Shown here: positions 33,493-39,671 of the stretch, piece after piece | How the letters are laid out: every line of letters begins with the position of its first letter | Position numbering within the stretch: position 1 is the first letter of the stretch | Source: a virus | Direction: 5' to 3' (one strand) | Virus record (IMG/VR): IMGVR_UViG_3300030107_007143 | Coordinates: 1 to 40,350 of that record | DNA length: 40,350 bases | Made by a program: the position numbers and the translations under genes | Notes under the pieces: generated by a model | What the model was told of the DNA's origin: nothing | What the model saw: the letters and a program-made list of their open reading frames with translations, nothing else | Databases searched by the model: none

Positions 33493-34203
33493 CAACTCAA
33501 AAACTACCTGCTAAGCATGCGCTCGCACTGGATGATCAACCAATCTTTGTATGAAGCGGTCCAGGAGTCGATGCCAGATATTGCTAAATTCAGAGCATCA
33601 CAAGGACAGCTCGATTTGAAGAAGACCGCGGTTCAGGACCATGTGCAAAAGATTTTCCCGGACATTTACCGCGTCCCGCTTTTTCGCCGTTCTTTCTGCA
33701 AGATGCTGGTAGAAGAAATTGGTCACATGCGACAAGAGATACCTTTCGAGCCCAATCCGGGAGAGGACAAATTAAGGCAAATTCCAGAAATCGTTTTGGC
33801 AGAGCACGTTCCTGAGTTGCAGCGAAGTATGTGGTTTGTGGTCAAGAATGTTTTGAACCCCATTTTTTGGGCGTTGTACCAACGCAACTGCGCGGACGTA
33901 GGATCTATTCAAATAGCAAATTACAACTTGCAGGACAAAAAACAGGGCGCTTGGCATCACGATTCAAGCGCTGACATCTCAGTTGTGGTGCCTTTGAACA
34001 CAGGGGAGTACGAGGGCGGGGGAACAGAATTCCACCAGTGGGGAACGTTAAATCCATTGCCCAGCGGCCATGCCTTGATTTTTCCTAGCTTCACAAATCT
34101 TCATCGCGGGCTCCCGGTCTTTTCGGGCGACAGGTTACTCCTGGTCTTCTGGCTTTACGATCGAGCTCGAGTGGTAGACAACGCAGAACTTTGGTTCGAA
34201 TAA
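33487..34203 (+). CDS. 2OG-Fe(II) oxygenase (prolyl-4-hydroxylase-like)
   Basis: The 238-aa protein has the full facial triad: GAWHHDSSADIS with H157-x-D159, then GGGTEFHQWG, the distal H206 in SFTNLHRGLPVFSGDRLLLV, and R216 for 2OG binding. The order and the 'VVPLN...EGGGTEF...P-x-G-x-ALIFPS...H-RG' layout are classic for P4H/PKHD-type oxygenases. Substrate is unknown. It is the second such enzyme in the window and only superficially like the one at 3736. ATG 33487 is at the very edge of the promoter; Met11 is an alternative start. Confidence 0.88.
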   Translation: MYQLKNYLLSMRSHWMINQSLYEAVQESMPDIAKFRASQGQLDLKKTAVQDHVQKIFPDIYRVPLFRRSFCKMLVEEIGHMRQEIPFEPNPGEDKLRQIPEIVLAEHVPELQRSMWFVVKNVLNPIFWALYQRNCADVGSIQIANYNLQDKKQGAWHHDSSADISVVVPLNTGEYEGGGTEFHQWGTLNPLPSGHALIFPSFTNLHRGLPVFSGDRLLLVFWLYDRARVVDNAELWFE

Positions 34204-34204
34204 T

Positions 34205-34246
34205 TTGTACAAAAAAGTATACATCGACACGCGAATGGGTATAATA
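34205..34246 (+). promoter_or_regulatory. Repeated phage promoter, copy A
   Basis: GTATAC (34217-34222), 17-nt spacer, TATAAT (34240-34245). CGACACG lies in the spacer at 34225-34231, exactly 15 nt upstream of the -10. Upstream is the palindrome TTTGTACAAA. Downstream comes GCGCCAACAACAACGGAAA with an SD for the gene at 34267. Matches copies B and C. Confidence 0.8.
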
Positions 34247-34266
34247 AGCGCCAACAACAACGGAAA

Positions 34267-35100
34267 ATGATGATGCAAGATTTACAAAAACTGGTTCAAA
34301 CCGTAGCTTCCCGCATCGAACAGTTTGACGCCAGATCCGCGGCAGCCAGGGCCGCGCGAGACGAGCGGCTAAGAAAAAACGCTGAAGCGAACGGCGACCT
34401 CGCACCCACACTCAGCGCAGCCGGCATGCATGCGCCTTGCGACAACTATCATTGGGAATGGTGCCTCTACAACGCTGACGGTGAAATCCAAGACGTTCGC
34501 GAAGGTGAATTTATGGCCGGAGAGTTCTTACCCTGGAGCAAGGAAATCGATCTTTTTTGCCGCGATTACGCAGAAAAGCGAACGGGCTTCCCTTTGCGCC
34601 GGGTCACTTACATCCCGGTTGAACGAGCCGATACAGTTATCGAAGCGCTTTCAGGCGTTGTTCACATACACACCGGGAAGCCTTTCGAGGATCGCGATGG
34701 CGAGCACCTTGTCTACGTCTACATCGATGAGCGATGCAAAGACGTCGCCGACGCTATCGCGTCTTACCTCGAGGCCCCCAGGGTGGCAGCTGCTGCGGCT
34801 CAACGAGCTGCTGAACAGGCCAAGCTGGACGCCGCCGAGCCTTGCCCAACCGGGCGAATCGCAATCACGGGTAAAATTCTCGGTATCAAGCTGCAAGAGG
34901 GTTATTACGGAAACACCTGGAAGATGCTGGTAGAGGACGATCGTGGGTTCAAAGTTTGGGGGACTATCCCTAGCAATTTGAACGTAGGGCGAGGCGACCG
35001 CGTGACGTTCACCGCAGCAATAGAGCCATCGAAAGACGATGACAAATTTGGTTTTTTCAAGCGGCCTACCAAGGCTGCACATTTAGAGGAGGCCGCGTAA
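34267..35100 (+). CDS. OB-fold protein, possible ssDNA-binding role, 277 aa
   Basis: Three consecutive ATGs (34267, 34270, 34273) follow GGAAA. The N-terminal part is helical (AAARAARDERLRKNAEANGD). A middle domain contains DNYHWEWCLYNADGE and YVYIDERCKDVADAIAS. The C-terminal 90 residues, GRIAITGKILGIKLQEGYYG, then NTWKMLVEDDRGFKVWGTIP and GDRVTFTAAIEPSKDDDKFG, look like an OB fold seen in many phage/plasmid proteins. The last codons and stop lie in a GGCCGC-GTAA-GCGGCC hairpin. First gene of promoter A's operon. Confidence 0.72.
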   Translation: MMMQDLQKLVQTVASRIEQFDARSAAARAARDERLRKNAEANGDLAPTLSAAGMHAPCDNYHWEWCLYNADGEIQDVREGEFMAGEFLPWSKEIDLFCRDYAEKRTGFPLRRVTYIPVERADTVIEALSGVVHIHTGKPFEDRDGEHLVYVYIDERCKDVADAIASYLEAPRVAAAAAQRAAEQAKLDAAEPCPTGRIAITGKILGIKLQEGYYGNTWKMLVEDDRGFKVWGTIPSNLNVGRGDRVTFTAAIEPSKDDDKFGFFKRPTKAAHLEEAA

Positions 35101-35107
35101 GCGGCCC
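35088..35107. repeat. 20-bp palindromic repeat across a stop codon, copy 1
   Basis: GGAGGCCGCGTAAGCGGCCC; the core GGCCGC-GTAA-GCGGCC is a perfect 6-bp stem with a GTAA loop containing the TAA. The same 20 bp occur at 37622-37641. The next SD (AGGAGA) follows immediately, so the hairpin could affect coupling or mRNA stability. Confidence 0.85.
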
Positions 35108-35120
35108 AGGAGACAACGAC

Positions 35121-35312
35121 ATGGACGATTTTTTGGCAACAGGTATAGCAGAGGGCTTCTTGCCTGCGGACAGTGACGATCAAGTGATTGAGGCTTGGCA
35201 GCACCTGGTCGACACTGGGTTAGCTTGGCGTTTACAAGGGTGGTTCGGGCGCACCGCGGTCGACCTCATAAAGGCGGGAGTGATAGCCCCCGTATCGTCT
35301 GGAGAAGACTAG
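35121..35312 (+). CDS. Small conserved protein, 63 aa
   Basis: SD AGGAGA before the ATG. The sequence EGFLPADSDDQVIEAWQHLV, then DTGLAWRLQGWFGRTAVDLI matches a small family (DUF7417-like, name uncertain; the 'AWQ-LVDTGLAWRLQGWFGRTA' core is highly recognisable). It occurs in phages and mobile elements. Function is unknown. Adjacent to the OB-fold gene in one transcript. Confidence 0.8.
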   Translation: MDDFLATGIAEGFLPADSDDQVIEAWQHLVDTGLAWRLQGWFGRTAVDLIKAGVIAPVSSGED

Positions 35313-35564
35313 ATGGCGAAACTTATTGGCAGACCGGTGTTCCAAGTCACTCGACACGCAACAGGCAAAAATGATCGACGTGTCCATGTGCTAACTTGTG
35401 TTGCCCAAGGCGTCATTACTAAACGTCGGGCGCAATCGGACGCCCATGAGGTGTTCATACAGAGCGTTTGCGATAGTTTGCGGGGTTGGGTGCCGACAGC
35501 GGATGTCGGTACTCTAGAGGACTTCCACCATCATCGAAAAAAAACATGGTATTTGCGTAAATAA
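35313..35564 (+). CDS. Hypothetical basic protein, 83 aa
   Basis: Abuts the preceding stop. The product has VFQVTRHATGKNDRRVHVLT, then a helical middle and SLRGWVPTADVGTLEDFHHH with a C-terminal RKKTWYLRK. No family recognised. Directly followed by promoter B. Confidence 0.65.
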   Translation: MAKLIGRPVFQVTRHATGKNDRRVHVLTCVAQGVITKRRAQSDAHEVFIQSVCDSLRGWVPTADVGTLEDFHHHRKKTWYLRK

Positions 35565-35565
35565 A

Positions 35566-35606
35566 TGCGTAAAAATGTATACATCGACACGCAAATGCGT
35601 ATAATT
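35566..35606 (+). promoter_or_regulatory. Repeated phage promoter, copy B
   Basis: GTATAC (35577-35582), 17-nt spacer, TATAAT (35600-35605), CGACACG at 35585-35591. A 5-bp hairpin TTGGG/CCCAA (35614-35629) lies in the leader, then AAGGAAAAAG as SD for the gene at 35651. Confidence 0.8.
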
Positions 35607-35650
35607 GGCCGTGTTGGGGCTGATCCCAATCAACAAAAAAGGAAAAAGTG

Positions 35651-36223
35651 ATGAAAGAGAAAATTCAAAAACTAGGAAATTTGACCAAAGCGGAGCTGAT
35701 CAGACGGGTTCACCTCGCTGAGGCTTTCGAAGAAAGTAATAAGGCAAAGCTCGAGCGCATCAACTCTTTTGAAAACCAGATACGTTTCCTGCAGAAGGAG
35801 AACGAGTCGCTGCGCAAGGAGGTAGGCGAACTTGAGGCGCAAGATCCCCAACACGCCGAGACGTATCAAGTCGCGCACAAAGACATTGCCGGGTATCAGG
35901 GCTATTCAGAAGCGGCCATCAAGATATACACGCACACTGACCAGCCTGAGGATGGCGAGAAGCGTATCGCAACGATCAACATTCCTCATTTGGTTGATTC
36001 GTATCGAACGCATAGATCGATCGCAAGACAGTCTGAGGAAGCGGACACTGATTTTGATGCAGAGGCTTTGGAGGCCCTTGAGCGTGCTGAGACGCGGAAA
36101 CAACGTGAGCGTCTTTTTGAGATTCAAGATTTGTTGGGTGTGTTTTTCGAAAGGGCGGGCGGTTACGGTGACGAAGGATACGTAGGCGTCAAAGTCGAAC
36201 TGCGCAACAACTACAACGGGTAA
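35651..36223 (+). CDS. Coiled-coil hypothetical protein, 190 aa
   Basis: ATG 35651 (after GTG 35648) is at good distance from AAGG. N-terminal coiled coil (EESNKAKLERINSFENQIRF, LQKENESLRKEVGELEAQ) to about residue 75. A globular part contains IAGYQGYSEAAIKIYTHTDQ and IATINIPHLVD. The C-terminus is YGDEGYVGVKVELRNNYNG. Early-gene position. Function is unknown. Confidence 0.7.
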   Translation: MKEKIQKLGNLTKAELIRRVHLAEAFEESNKAKLERINSFENQIRFLQKENESLRKEVGELEAQDPQHAETYQVAHKDIAGYQGYSEAAIKIYTHTDQPEDGEKRIATINIPHLVDSYRTHRSIARQSEEADTDFDAEALEALERAETRKQRERLFEIQDLLGVFFERAGGYGDEGYVGVKVELRNNYNG

Positions 36224-36231
36224 GGGAGAAG

Positions 36232-36705
36232 ATGATGAGTGCATATTTAGTAAACACGGACCACATAGCTGAGATCGTAAAGTTTGCCCACAACAACAAG
36301 TTCAATCACGCTTACAATTGTTCGACCAAAAGCTCAATCGACACCGATCCCGAAAAATTGGTCGCACTGTTAGCCCAGGCAAACATAGACAGCCTGGTTG
36401 CCAGGTACGACGAAAACCCAAGCGACTTCAATGGGTTTATCGAACAGTGCTTGTCAAACCTAAAGCACAGCACAGACGGTTTCAGTCAAAGCTTGCTTAG
36501 TGGCGTCGGATGCTGCCAGCTTGGAGCCGACGATATCTACAACATGATCAAGTGCTGGGAGTATCAGTCTTGCGAGGTCGATAACTGGTTTGAGACAGAC
36601 GCTTATTGGGTGAGTGTCTACCTCAAAGACATAGCCGCAAGGAAGCTGGCTGAGAATGCCAAGGTCCAGTGGGAGTTTGTAAACAAAAGGGTTGAAGCGT
36701 CATGA
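36232..36705 (+). CDS. Conserved phage/mobile-element protein, 157 aa
   Basis: Two ATGs (36232 and 36235) follow GGGAGAAG; the second has better SD spacing. N-terminal SAYLVNTDHIAEIVKFAHNN is the recognisable start of a family common in phages and plasmids. Later parts hold ARYDENPSDFNGFIEQ, CWEYQSCEVDNWFETDAYWV and a helical end (ARKLAENAKVQWEF). Function is unknown. ATGA overlap with next gene. Confidence 0.75.
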   Translation: MMSAYLVNTDHIAEIVKFAHNNKFNHAYNCSTKSSIDTDPEKLVALLAQANIDSLVARYDENPSDFNGFIEQCLSNLKHSTDGFSQSLLSGVGCCQLGADDIYNMIKCWEYQSCEVDNWFETDAYWVSVYLKDIAARKLAENAKVQWEFVNKRVEAS

Positions 36706-37043
36706 GACTTTTCGACTTCACTTACGACAAACTTGTAATCGCTTGGTGCGCGGACACAAAAAAGTGGAGCGTGACTGGTGTGAAAGAGCCCTACTCTGAT
36801 GAAATCTTGGGTTGGCATAAAACTAGAGACGCAGCGACCATCGCCGCCAAAGAGTTCGCGTTTGCCCCTGACTTCGAAAGCCACCAGGCTTTTAAGGTGC
36901 AAGTTTTGGGAAAGCGCGGTCAGTTAATTCACTCGGACACGATCCCGAGCTGGGACCATAAACACTGGTTCGACCGGCTGAGTGCAGAAAAACAAGACCG
37001 GTGGCTTTACGCGCCTAATTTATCGCAACGATATCGGTTGTGA
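36702..37043 (+). CDS. Hypothetical protein, 113 aa
   Basis: ATGA overlap with the preceding gene. Sequence FDFTYDKLVIAWCADTKKWS, then a Trp/His-rich C-terminal part (SWDHKHWFDRLSAEKQ, RWLYAPNLSQRYRL). No family recognised. Last gene before promoter C. Confidence 0.65.
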   Translation: MRLFDFTYDKLVIAWCADTKKWSVTGVKEPYSDEILGWHKTRDAATIAAKEFAFAPDFESHQAFKVQVLGKRGQLIHSDTIPSWDHKHWFDRLSAEKQDRWLYAPNLSQRYRL

Positions 37044-37065
37044 GTCCTGAAATTATCAAAATAAA

Positions 37066-37107
37066 TTTTGTAAAAAGCTATACAACGACACGGTAATTTG
37101 TATAATA
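37066..37107 (+). promoter_or_regulatory. Repeated phage promoter, copy C
   Basis: CTATAC (37078-37083), 17-nt spacer, TATAAT (37101-37106), CGACACG at 37086-37092. Leader GTGCCATCAACAACGAAGGA is close to that of copy A and supplies the SD for 37137. Confidence 0.8.
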
Positions 37108-37136
37108 GGTGCCATCAACAACGAAGGAACCACACC

Positions 37137-37634
37137 ATGAACACAGACATCAAGATTGGCGACAAGGTACGCAGCTTTGATTTTGCAGCACATCGAGACA
37201 TCGAAGGCCCAGACGCTTGCTTTGCAGAGGGAGTTGTCGAGGGATTTCAAACCATCGGCTGCACTCGATTCGATATTCGAGTTACCCGCGCTGTTTGGGA
37301 GGGTAAAGAAGTGCCAACGGAGGAAGGTGCGCGGATTGCTCCGCCGCTCAACGGTACGCCCACCAACATGGGCCGCATCACTGACGGCGTGGTCAAGATC
37401 GAAGAGGCTGAGCCAGCCAATCAAATTGGCGACATGGATCTCAGCAATCTGACTGAAGAGCAGCTTGACGTGATTCGCACTCTCGCTTTAGCAGCCGAAG
37501 AGCATTTCGACAGGCTGGGTCGAGACAGCGAGTTTGCTCCGAAGGCAGATCGCGCAAACAGGGCTTCGATACAGGCTTTCAAACTAATTGGCCGCATTCG
37601 GAGAGAAAAAGAAACAAGAACGGAGGCCGCGTAA
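37137..37634 (+). CDS. Conserved hypothetical protein, 165 aa
   Basis: ATG 37137 with GAAGGA upstream is preferred to ATG 37098, which lies inside the promoter. Sequence IKIGDKVRSFDFAAHRDIEG, then DACFAEGVVEGFQ and CTRFDIRVTRAVWEGKEV, PPLNGTPTNMGRITDGVVKI. The first half resembles a small SH3-like beta barrel of the kind I recall in cyanophage/plasmid proteins. The C-terminal half is a basic helix (LTEEQLDVIRTLALAAEEHF). The stop sits in palindrome copy 2. Confidence 0.72.
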   Translation: MNTDIKIGDKVRSFDFAAHRDIEGPDACFAEGVVEGFQTIGCTRFDIRVTRAVWEGKEVPTEEGARIAPPLNGTPTNMGRITDGVVKIEEAEPANQIGDMDLSNLTEEQLDVIRTLALAAEEHFDRLGRDSEFAPKADRANRASIQAFKLIGRIRREKETRTEAA

Positions 37635-37641
37635 GCGGCCC
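37622..37641. repeat. 20-bp palindromic repeat across a stop codon, copy 2
   Basis: Identical 20 bp to 35088-35107: GGAGGCCGCGTAAGCGGCCC, with the perfect GGCCGC/GCGGCC stem and TAA in the GTAA loop. Followed by AAGGAG SD for the next gene. Confidence 0.85.
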
Positions 37642-37657
37642 GTACAAGGAGAACGTG

Positions 37658-37888
37658 ATGATCAAACTCAAAAAAATCAACGACGCATACTGGGCTGGCA
37701 ACGGCTTTGGCAATCAATCTGCCGAATGGGTAGTCAAAGGCGCGGAGCATATCAATGTATGGTCGAGCGGTGGCAACGAATGGAACGTGACAAACCGCGA
37801 CACTGGCGAACGAATTTTACGCAACAAATATGGTCGCGCATTCACTCTCGAACTGCTCGAAGACAAAATGCCTGAGCTTGGTTCTTAA
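37658..37888 (+). CDS. Hypothetical protein, 76 aa
   Basis: ATG 37658 with AAGGAG 7 nt upstream (GTG 37655 is in frame). Sequence LKKINDAYWAGNGFGNQSAE, then NVWSSGGNEWNVTNRDTGER and ILRNKYGRAFTLELLEDKMP. Compact beta-like protein. No family recognised. Confidence 0.68.
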   Translation: MIKLKKINDAYWAGNGFGNQSAEWVVKGAEHINVWSSGGNEWNVTNRDTGERILRNKYGRAFTLELLEDKMPELGS

Positions 37889-37904
37889 CTCCAACTGACG
37901 AGCT

Positions 37905-37923
37905 GGGCGGGTGGTTCCCGCCC
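37905..37923 (+). promoter_or_regulatory. Strong GC hairpin without T tract
   Basis: Perfect 7-bp stem GGGCGGG/CCCGCCC with a TGGTT loop in the gap after the 37658 gene. No T run follows, so it is not a standard terminator. An alternative CCCG...CGGG pairing (37922-37936) overlaps its 3' arm. Confidence 0.7.
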
Positions 37924-37963
37924 CGAAACCTACGGGTCTTGGATAACCAATAAGGAAAATGTG

Positions 37964-38353
37964 ATGAGCTACGAATACAAAGGAAACGATGTTGTTTGGT
38001 CTATTTACTCAGATACGAGCAGTGATGACGTGGATGAGTGGGTAGCAGATAACCAAACTGGTGACGATGACGAAGGCAGGATCGAAAACATTCCAGACGG
38101 CGTTTACGAAGTGAACCAGCGTAACTGGAACACCAATCGCCGTATCTCGCTGCAAACCAAAGTTTTGGTTTGGAATGGCAAGGTAGATATCGAGTCTGCA
38201 AAAGAAGCTGTTGCTGAGTTTCTGAACAAGACTGGTGACTGGCACTACTTCATCGAGGGCGTGATGTTCGGCAAGAAAAGCACCAAGGTGTTTGACAAAT
38301 ATGGCAAGCACGTTGAAACGCAGCGCACCCTTCAATTTATTTTGGGTAGTTAA
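37964..38353 (+). CDS. Hypothetical protein, 129 aa
   Basis: ATG 37964 with AAGGA. Early part is acidic (SDTSSDDVDEWVADNQTGDD), then EVNQRNWNTNRRISLQTKVL, AKEAVAEFLNKTGDWHYFIE and a C-terminal KHVETQRTLQFILGS. No family recognised. No own promoter seen; it probably belongs to transcript C. Confidence 0.65.
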   Translation: MSYEYKGNDVVWSIYSDTSSDDVDEWVADNQTGDDDEGRIENIPDGVYEVNQRNWNTNRRISLQTKVLVWNGKVDIESAKEAVAEFLNKTGDWHYFIEGVMFGKKSTKVFDKYGKHVETQRTLQFILGS

Positions 38354-38378
38354 GGCAACTGAGAGACATAAGGAAAAG

Positions 38379-38675
38379 ATGATGGAATTACACTTTACTG
38401 ACCGAGAAATCGGCTATCTATCAAACACCAAAATGAATAGTTGTTACGACGAACAATCGTGGCGTTTTGACCTAAACGATGACGAAATGCGCCCTACGGA
38501 GGGCGGTGTGATGCTTTGGTGTGGAGATAATTTCCTTAACGCAAAGATTGTTGCTCAGCATTACCGTTCTGGCGAAAACCCTCTAGCCACTTCTATCATG
38601 TGGGATGAGGGCGGCTTGAATAACGAGTGGGTGGTCTGGGTGGATGCAAAATCTATTGACGATCCCAGAATATAA
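38379..38675 (+). CDS. Hypothetical protein, 98 aa
   Basis: Two ATGs (38379, 38382) follow AAGGAAAAG. An upstream in-frame TTG start at 38292 inside the preceding gene is not supported. Acidic, Trp-rich protein (EGGVMLWCGDNFLNAKIVAQ, LNNEWVVWVDAKSIDD). Last rightward gene before the convergent hairpin. Confidence 0.68.
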   Translation: MMELHFTDREIGYLSNTKMNSCYDEQSWRFDLNDDEMRPTEGGVMLWCGDNFLNAKIVAQHYRSGENPLATSIMWDEGGLNNEWVVWVDAKSIDDPRI

Positions 38676-38732: not shown

Positions 38733-38917
38733 TTCATCCGCTCGACGTACTGCATGTACGGCTCGCCAAACTTGACCTCGAACCATTTGCCCCAGCTGTA
38801 TCGACGACTCGGCACTGGGTGCCCACGCTTATGCCAGATATCTCTCGCGGCATGATATTTGATATCTTGCGCCCACTGCTTCTCGCGCTCCTGGTCCTCA
38901 GTAGAGAGCACTAGCAT
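38708..38917 (-). CDS. Small basic hypothetical protein, 69 aa
   Basis: ATG at 38917, inside the end of the exonuclease gene (20-bp overlap); a TTG at 38920 is the only in-frame codon slightly upstream. Sequence LVLSTEDQEREKQWAQDIKY, then AARDIWHKRGHPVPSRRYSW and FGEPYMQYVERMKGQ. Possibly an accessory of the nuclease operon. No family recognised. Confidence 0.62.
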   Translation of the reverse strand: MLVLSTEDQEREKQWAQDIKYHAARDIWHKRGHPVPSRRYSWGKWFEVKFGEPYMQYVERMKGQKNQKG

Positions 38918-39671
38918 CAAACTCTACCGGTTCATCTAAACCAAACGGGCGCAGCGTGTTCGCACCGCGGGCCTCAAGGCCCCGAGCTAACGCCTGTTCA
39001 TTCTTTGCATGGCCGTACTCAATCGCGTCATCACTCAGCGTATATACAGCATATGGGTACGGGTGCGCTTTCGCCTGCGCCAAGAAGTAAAACTTCGCTG
39101 CCGGCAGTCCCACAGACTCGCAGGCGGCCAGGTAGAACGCTGCTTGTTGATAGTACCGAAATGAGTTAACTGCAGCCCTGAAGCCCCTAGGGGACGCGTC
39201 GCGGCAGGTTTTGAGGTCCCAGACATCTGTCCCGGTATACCAGTCAAGCTTTGCTTTGCAAGGCTCACCACACCAGACAAAACATAAAGTCAGCTCAACT
39301 CGGTGGTTCTCTTGTGGAATGTATTCCGCAACCACCTCCCGTCGCTCCATGCAAAGGTCGTACAGGTCTTGTTTGCAGGGGGTGCGATCGTCCAGGCCTT
39401 CTAACCATTTGGCGTATTCCTCCTTCCCAACCTTTGTGCGCCGATCGACCGCGGGCTCTATGGCAAACTCCTCAAAAAACTTCTCGTGTTCCAAAAACAC
39501 GGTGTGCTGCACTCTGCCCTCGAGCAACGCTGGCGTTTCTTTCATCGGCGCTTGATGCCTCCAGGTGTAAGGACACTCAATCAAAGTCGTCAAATCGTGC
39601 GAGCGCCATGCCGGTATGCTCGCGTACGTGGGGTAATCTAACCCGTCATAAATTCCAGGCTCAAAATCCAT
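38898..39671 (-). CDS. RecE/exonuclease VIII-like PD-(D/E)XK nuclease
   Basis: The 257-aa protein has PDDEXK features in order: SIPAWRSHDLTTLIECPYTW (N-terminal substrate region), EGRVQHTVFLEHE with His56, CKAKLDWYTG with Asp143, VWDLKTCRDAS with D152-L-K154, and FRYYQQAAFYLAA with the late Tyr/Gln helix. This is the layout of the PDDEXK_12/RecE family (DUF3799-type), which degrades dsDNA ends 5'-3' in phage recombination. No RecT annealing partner is visible in the window. SD TAGGAG lies in the preceding peptide gene's end. Confidence 0.88.
   Translation of the reverse strand: MDFEPGIYDGLDYPTYASIPAWRSHDLTTLIECPYTWRHQAPMKETPALLEGRVQHTVFLEHEKFFEEFAIEPAVDRRTKVGKEEYAKWLEGLDDRTPCKQDLYDLCMERREVVAEYIPQENHRVELTLCFVWCGEPCKAKLDWYTGTDVWDLKTCRDASPRGFRAAVNSFRYYQQAAFYLAACESVGLPAAKFYFLAQAKAHPYPYAVYTLSDDAIEYGHAKNEQALARGLEARGANTLRPFGLDEPVEFDASALY

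Follow-up and report, generated by a model that had tools for sequence, protein, structure and literature searches.

A hairpin enclosing the stop codon recurs at the ends of small phage genes and may act as a joint for their exchange

Two Identical Hairpins Enclose Stop Codons in an Uncultured Phage

We analyzed a stretch of 40,350 nucleotides of viral DNA (positions 1 to 40,350 of the 52,088-base IMG/VR record IMGVR_UViG_3300030107_007143; hereafter the window), in which a preliminary description had pointed out identical 20-bp palindromes over the stop codons of two genes. The 20-mer is indeed found twice, on the + strand at 35088-35107 and 37622-37641, in both cases with TAA in the loop of the 16-letter hairpin GGCCGC-GTAA-GCGGCC (six pairs and a tetraloop, the stop codon occupying loop positions 2-4; Table 1). 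No third copy with up to three mismatches occurs in the 40,350 bases, none arose in 100 dinucleotide shuffles, and the whole record holds two copies of the core. The predicted fold of the 20-mer alone reaches -13.5 kcal/mol (z -3.9); folded within 60 nt of sequence, site 2 has a z of -3.0 and site 1 one of just -0.6. As the same sequence is read in the same frame, both closed proteins end in Glu-Ala-Ala (E-A-A), and each site is followed by a Shine-Dalgarno (SD) sequence and a start codon (at 35121 behind site 1, at GTG 37655 or ATG 37658 behind site 2), both features in agreement with the first account. The two proteins are unrelated, with a best BLASTP E of 6, as had been supposed, and the alternative of homologous C-termini does not hold. 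A T-run on the + strand is absent at both sites, and Rfam covariance models returned no match at E up to 1 within 34000-38500.

Table 1. Hairpins, genes and other features in and near the window (positions are those of the window unless marked as record positions; aa, amino acids)
Feature	Position	Strand	Remarks
Site 1	stem 35091-35096/35101-35106, loop GTAA 35097-35100, stop TAA 35098-35100	+	
Site 2	stem 37625-37630/37635-37640, loop 37631-37634, stop TAA 37632-37634	+	
Gene closed by site 1	34267..35100	+	277 aa, unknown function (phrog_4750, E 7e-30)
Gene after site 1	35121..35312	+	63 aa, DUF7417; SD AGGAG starts 2 nt past stem
Gene closed by site 2	37137..37634	+	family U1; 165 aa from ATG, without family match
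Gene after site 2	37655..37888	+	77 aa; family sits between two hairpins in L036
Promoter-like repeat, copy 1	34218..34245	+	precedes gene 34267
Promoter-like repeat, copy 2	35578..35605	+	precedes gene 35648
Promoter-like repeat, copy 3	37079..37106	+	precedes gene 37137
Exonuclease VIII-like gene	38898..39671	-	PDDEXK, DUF3799; possible recombination enzyme
Resolvase-domain protein of the window's phage	record 50226-51038		

The Hairpin Lies Mostly on the Stop Codons of Phage Genes

A wider search for the 20-mer, as the preliminary description had suggested for the phage and its relatives, found it in 54 stretches of the IMG/VR viral contigs and the 16-mer, mostly on stops, in at least 120. 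These data are almost entirely metagenomic contigs of uncultured phages, and the figures of the 16-mer scan hold among the matches listed (L001-L179), the true numbers being higher. We refer to the stem of the window as class 1 and to GGCGGC-GTAA-GCCGCC as class 2. Distinct exact class-1 16-mers number 158; 144 of these coincide with the stop of an open reading frame (ORF) of at least 40 codons, as do 28 of 30 one-mismatch variants, and an SD and start stand close behind 115 of the 158, versus 28 of 68 sites of a control stem, GGGCGC. The inner 14-mer, with 178 distinct sites, closes an ORF of this length at 163 and is followed by an SD and start, under a lenient rule, at 151. The gap from stem to SD has a median of 3 nt (152 sites). 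Of 210 stop-plus-SD hairpins detected across 4.4 Mb, 205 place the stop at loop positions 2-4, a count biased by the fetching of most of this sequence through hairpin patterns. With one mismatch allowed, 47 of 50 records matched, with 0-3 copies per record.

In bacterial genome contigs, the 18-mer is present in 65 stretches, mostly dispersed in GC-rich genomes, and one match is a copy of phage contig L004 within a metagenome-assembled genome. Among deposited phages, in the circular record of phage C72C1 the hairpin covers the CDS0029 stop, a match in a Microbacterium phage is located inside a gene, and two further junction queries gave weak matches only. The primase gene of a Rhizobium phage (MN988496.1, 40250-40270; L674) ends exactly on the 21-mer, with the next annotated gene about 250 nt off.

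Homology Between Phage Contigs Switches at the Hairpin

Among the contigs compared, homology between phages switches on and off at the hairpin, and genes are paired anew, sometimes as hairpin-to-hairpin units. Across 176 sites with sufficient flank, mean identity drops from 0.88-0.90 before the core to 0.26 after it in the 61 pairs with upstream-only similarity, and rises from 0.27-0.28 to 0.92 in the 37 pairs with downstream-only similarity; the best one-sided pairs are 100% identical on one side and random beyond the hairpin. The SD leader mostly moves together with the downstream gene, and in some pairs identity continues past the hairpin through the leader up to the start codon.

The genes meeting at the hairpin fall into 83 upstream and 99 downstream families. 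The 13 paired sites of upstream family U0 lead to 13 different downstream families, U1 has nine followers at 11 sites and U2 eight at eight, and downstream family D0 is preceded by eight different families at its nine sites. More than one downstream partner is found for 20 of the 24 upstream nucleotide clusters with multiple sites, and more than one upstream partner for 18 of the 22 downstream ones. With our own simple gene finder, we compared joints with and without a hairpin; 88 of the 1729 joints had one. For proteins 80-95% identical, the neighbor was kept at 1 of 15 hairpin joints with the same upstream gene and at 0 of 11 with the same downstream gene, whereas hairpin-free joints up to four genes from a hairpin kept it in 38 of 68 and 56 of 64 cases, respectively, and all hairpin-free joints in 424 of 541 and 430 of 517.

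Different pairings of whole units are seen at the window itself, where family 1 (37137-37634) is succeeded by family 16 (37655-37888); in L030 family 1 is succeeded by family 25, and in L036 family 16 is flanked by two hairpins with family 25 behind. Eight triples read A-hairpin-X-hairpin-B in some contigs but A-hairpin-B elsewhere. Families found on either side of a hairpin number 29, and at least two hairpin copies, five at most, are present in 34 loci. Nine cassette families were tested for function: one matches the anti-restriction phrog_7245, two have matches solely to PHROGs without a known function, and six match no PHROG.

Switches at the hairpin are also seen between phages with few genes in common. 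Twenty hairpin records (some covered in part) and the record of the window were sorted by eye into about eight gene-sharing groups, between which 38 nucleotide matches (80 nt or longer, identity 70% or higher) were found. The top three by identity (95.0% over 240 nt, 91.2% over 205 nt and 88.9% over 496 nt) have ends no more than 3 nt from a hairpin in both records. Counting all matches that end at most 20 nt from a hairpin in both records gives 7 of the 38; the 746 kb compared contain 29 hairpins. Window gene 37655 matches, in its first part, the other-group record G029 at 83% identity over 119 nt; G029 is also a partner in the best cross-group match. In the window-G029 match the exact hairpin stands at the window end only.

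Stem Substitutions Point to a Hairpin in the Sense-Strand RNA

Among single-substitution variants of both stems, the interior changes comprise 15 C>T and one G>C. Since 15 of these 16 preserve pairing on the sense strand, as G-U, and the lone G>C disrupts it, an RNA hairpin is probably maintained. G>A changes number zero at interior stem positions and 13 at the outermost pair; antisense or double-strand pairing would not account for this asymmetry, of which a strand mutation bias could be a partial cause. The 5' arm is also coding-constrained, and in the 3' arm alone 11 of 12 changes keep pairing. Compensated changes are seen in the single-locus stem GGGCGC/GCGCCC and in class 2 throughout, and the predicted hairpin probability is 0.98 (146 junctions).

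The ssrA tag ends in Ala-Ala, and both main stems encode Ala-Ala-stop. A degron was set aside as an explanation: V-A or A-V ends occur with pairing intact, so that Ala-Ala is not strictly needed.

Other Stems at Gene Ends

Class 2 repeats the pattern at 115 sites, 99 of them on stops and 75 with an SD and start (among the matches listed), and among clusters with multiple sites, 7 of 11 and 9 of 12 have several partners. A number of class-2 sites (L466, L473, L510 and similar) have a V-A-A end and alike CCTC...GGAGCAA leaders, apparently marking another phage group. The GGGCGC stem, with 39 of its 68 sites on stops and 28 followed by an SD, shows few shuffles (2/4 and 2/5).

With GAAA in the loop, the GGCCGC stem is in most cases terminator-like, a T-run accompanying 39 or 56 of the 111 sites by strand; at loci L288-L407 such hairpins stand at mosaic joints, many with a TGTGACATGTCAC palindrome behind. 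A stem with a TTAG loop, found on stops at 25 of 67 sites and with a T-run at 43, is a related terminator version. At L444, L479, L503, L556 and L576 the TAG in its loop is followed by a T-run and a shared promoter-like tail, an arrangement resembling a terminator-promoter cassette. Overall, serving as a joint is common to conserved gene-end hairpins; the stop-codon hairpin stands out by carrying the stop in its loop, by the SD immediately behind, by the lack of a T-run and by the many unrelated genes that it closes.

A Candidate Recombination Joint and Its Alternatives

We consider it fairly probable, from these sequence comparisons, that the hairpin is a standardized 3' end of small accessory genes in uncultured tailed phages, which separates cistrons and whose shared DNA serves as a recombination junction. 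In the mRNA, the hairpin would reform behind the terminating ribosome and may keep adjoining cistrons apart, as a translation boundary, through mRNA stability, or both; we propose that the sense-strand stem is under selection because of this separation. The layout suits cistron separation at least as well as translation coupling. In the DNA, because all such genes end in the same 16-20 bp, general recombination, whether by phage exonuclease and annealing enzymes or by those of the host, could join any hairpin-closed gene to any other, and every recombinant would automatically carry stop, hairpin, SD and start. Among the guesses first offered for the element, that of recombination is in line with the breakpoints and the reshuffling, and that of an RNA element with the pairing apparently kept on the sense strand; a mobile scar is too weak a description, since many genes in several phage groups use the same joint. 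The third guess, a protein site, is conceivable. More tentatively, the data may reflect a gene-cassette economy of one-gene cassettes in which the hairpin is at once stop, cistron separator and exchange joint, shared by some eight gene-content groups in two or more stem versions, and integron-like in form but lacking an integron integrase. How phages exchange small genes while keeping them intact is an old question, for which the joint described here is visible, repeated and testable, and the hairpin offers a handle for accessory-gene discovery.

Several observations weigh against this explanation. At 95-100% protein identity, hairpin neighbors are mostly kept (16/19 and 17/23), as expected of near-identical phages, and at 60-80% the same-downstream neighbors are kept in 4 of 6 cases, opposite to the trend. 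The stop-codon hairpin is not alone in showing shuffling, because the GAAA-loop stem is also at mosaic joints, with several partners in 6 of 10 and 9 of 17 clusters and 194+25 raw one-sided pairs; such raw counts are inflated by large clusters, and we therefore compare stems by multi-site cluster counts. Nearly all data are metagenomic contigs, the dominance of just two stems implies tighter sequence conservation than pairing in RNA alone would require, and the SD is predicted to be unpaired only about half the time (mean 0.53). Furthermore, among the relatives of the gene closed by site 1 (gene 1; stop in view at 23 of 24 loci), 11 of 23 keep E-A-A with the 3' arm decayed to 0-5 pairs.

Only 7 of the 23 have a stem of at least six pairs around the stop, the decayed loci mostly have a T-rich terminator-like hairpin downstream, and 5 others have no such hairpin. 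The loss of the hairpin from relatives that keep the gene, named at the outset as evidence against the element, is therefore found in part. As decay occurs mostly where a separate terminator-like hairpin follows, the pattern suggests that the stem matters where the next gene follows directly. Some gene-1 relatives (L001-L003, L007, L011-L013) combine an E-E-A-A end and a decayed 3' arm with a GGGGGC terminator-like hairpin.

Hairpin-to-hairpin transfer, the arrays, the strong conservation of the hairpin sequence and the Resolvase-domain protein of the window's phage would all suit a dedicated serine or tyrosine recombinase, cutting at the hairpin as the integron integrase does at attC and moving true site-specific cassettes. 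We regard this as unlikely: a Resolvase domain is found in 8 of 50 records, 47 of which have a hairpin match, and a tyrosine integrase in 9 of 38; no gene family is common to all eight groups read, many records being fragments; and the substitutions track sense-strand RNA pairing. Nor is any of the enzyme families tested common to all carriers among these partly fragmentary records, the DUF3799 exonuclease being present in 10 of 50, RecT in 1 of 38 and ERF in 1 of 38.

It is also rather improbable that the hairpin is purely a gene-expression element, a selected stop-overlapping RNA structure at which mosaic joints reflect ordinary gene-boundary mosaicism. The tolerance of G-U pairs, the two different stems in one layout and the terminators that likewise lie at joints agree with such an element, but at 80-95% identity hairpin neighbors are kept far less than those at nearby hairpin-free joints, and the most identical cross-group matches terminate at hairpins in both records.

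A weak or conditional transcription terminator is very doubtful. T-runs stand behind 7 of 158 class-1 sites and are frequent in the TTAG-loop version, yet the other 151 class-1 sites and the + strand of both window sites have none, and the next gene usually begins immediately. An intrinsic terminator was rejected by this sequence test, the GC-rich stem being devoid of a T-run at the window and at most class-1 sites. Finally, assembly chimeras formed through the shared repeat, conceivable in metagenomic contigs where unrelated sites share exact runs of 18 nt in median and 42 nt at most, are highly improbable because 26 of 164 distinct junctions recur in at least two loci, several from different data sets; shared runs are moreover mostly below 21 nt (at least 21 in 1567 of 18250 pairs), and one contig holds both window sites.

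Relation to Known Systems

Searches of an open-access library turned up no description of a stop-codon hairpin as a joint; as far as these searches show, the stop-codon form of the joint is new, and the idea is kin to promoter early stem-loops (PeSLs) and boundary sequences. PeSLs of T4-like phages (Arbiol 2010, Comeau 2014, as described in PMC4503421 and PMC3950731) are gene-end stem-loops linked to small-gene shuffling, and resemble the present element as short repeated structures tied to modular shuffling among related phages. The hairpin described here differs in lying over the stop codon, in its 16 bp, in having no adjoining promoter and mostly no T-run, and in its presence in several gene-content groups of phages that may not be T4-like. 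Mosaic phages have been reported to recombine homologously at short conserved boundary sequences (PMC3029335), which likewise act as recombination points at gene boundaries; the present element, in contrast, is a single sequence shared by many unrelated genes, and it folds into a hairpin over the stop codon.

Integron attC hairpins are reported to impede ribosomes instead of ending transcription (PMC8876359), a possible functional parallel, by analogy, to a cistron-separating hairpin. In anatomy only, the likeness extends to one small gene with a 3' hairpin and to arrays. The difference is that no integrase is common to the carriers (any tyrosine recombinase occurs in 9 of 38 records, with no separate IntI test), and that the integron core GTTRRRY is absent from the conserved 16-mer, whose longer flanks are not conserved. 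The attC site is also far longer than the 16-mer. Repetitive extragenic palindromic (REP) elements with their REP-associated tyrosine transposase (RAYT) have a conserved tetranucleotide at the foot and a partner transposase; at the hairpin studied here, the foot letters vary between sites. The stoperators of cluster A mycobacteriophages, 13-bp asymmetric repressor sites with 24 copies in L5 and 34 in Bxb1 (PMC3029335), are also short oriented repeats at gene boundaries, but the present element is a palindrome with substitutions preserving RNA pairing, and its copy number is too low for a stoperator, a candidate that we rejected.

Further Features of the Window

The promoter-like repeat (Table 1) is a 28-bp, sigma70-like sequence with conserved spacer letters that heads three gene blocks and arose in 0 of 100 shuffles. 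It lies more than 500 nt from the window hairpins, and no copy turned up in the further class-1 loci that were searched. For the window phage only, the nearest terminase (TerL) sequences are those of Pelagibacter phages HTVC027P and HTVC023P and of phage 023Pt_psg01, at 57-61% identity, and a TerL related to that of the window occurs in 9 of the 50 records examined. The window phage also encodes a protein with an acidic DDIPF end, which we take to be a likeness to single-stranded DNA-binding protein (SSB).

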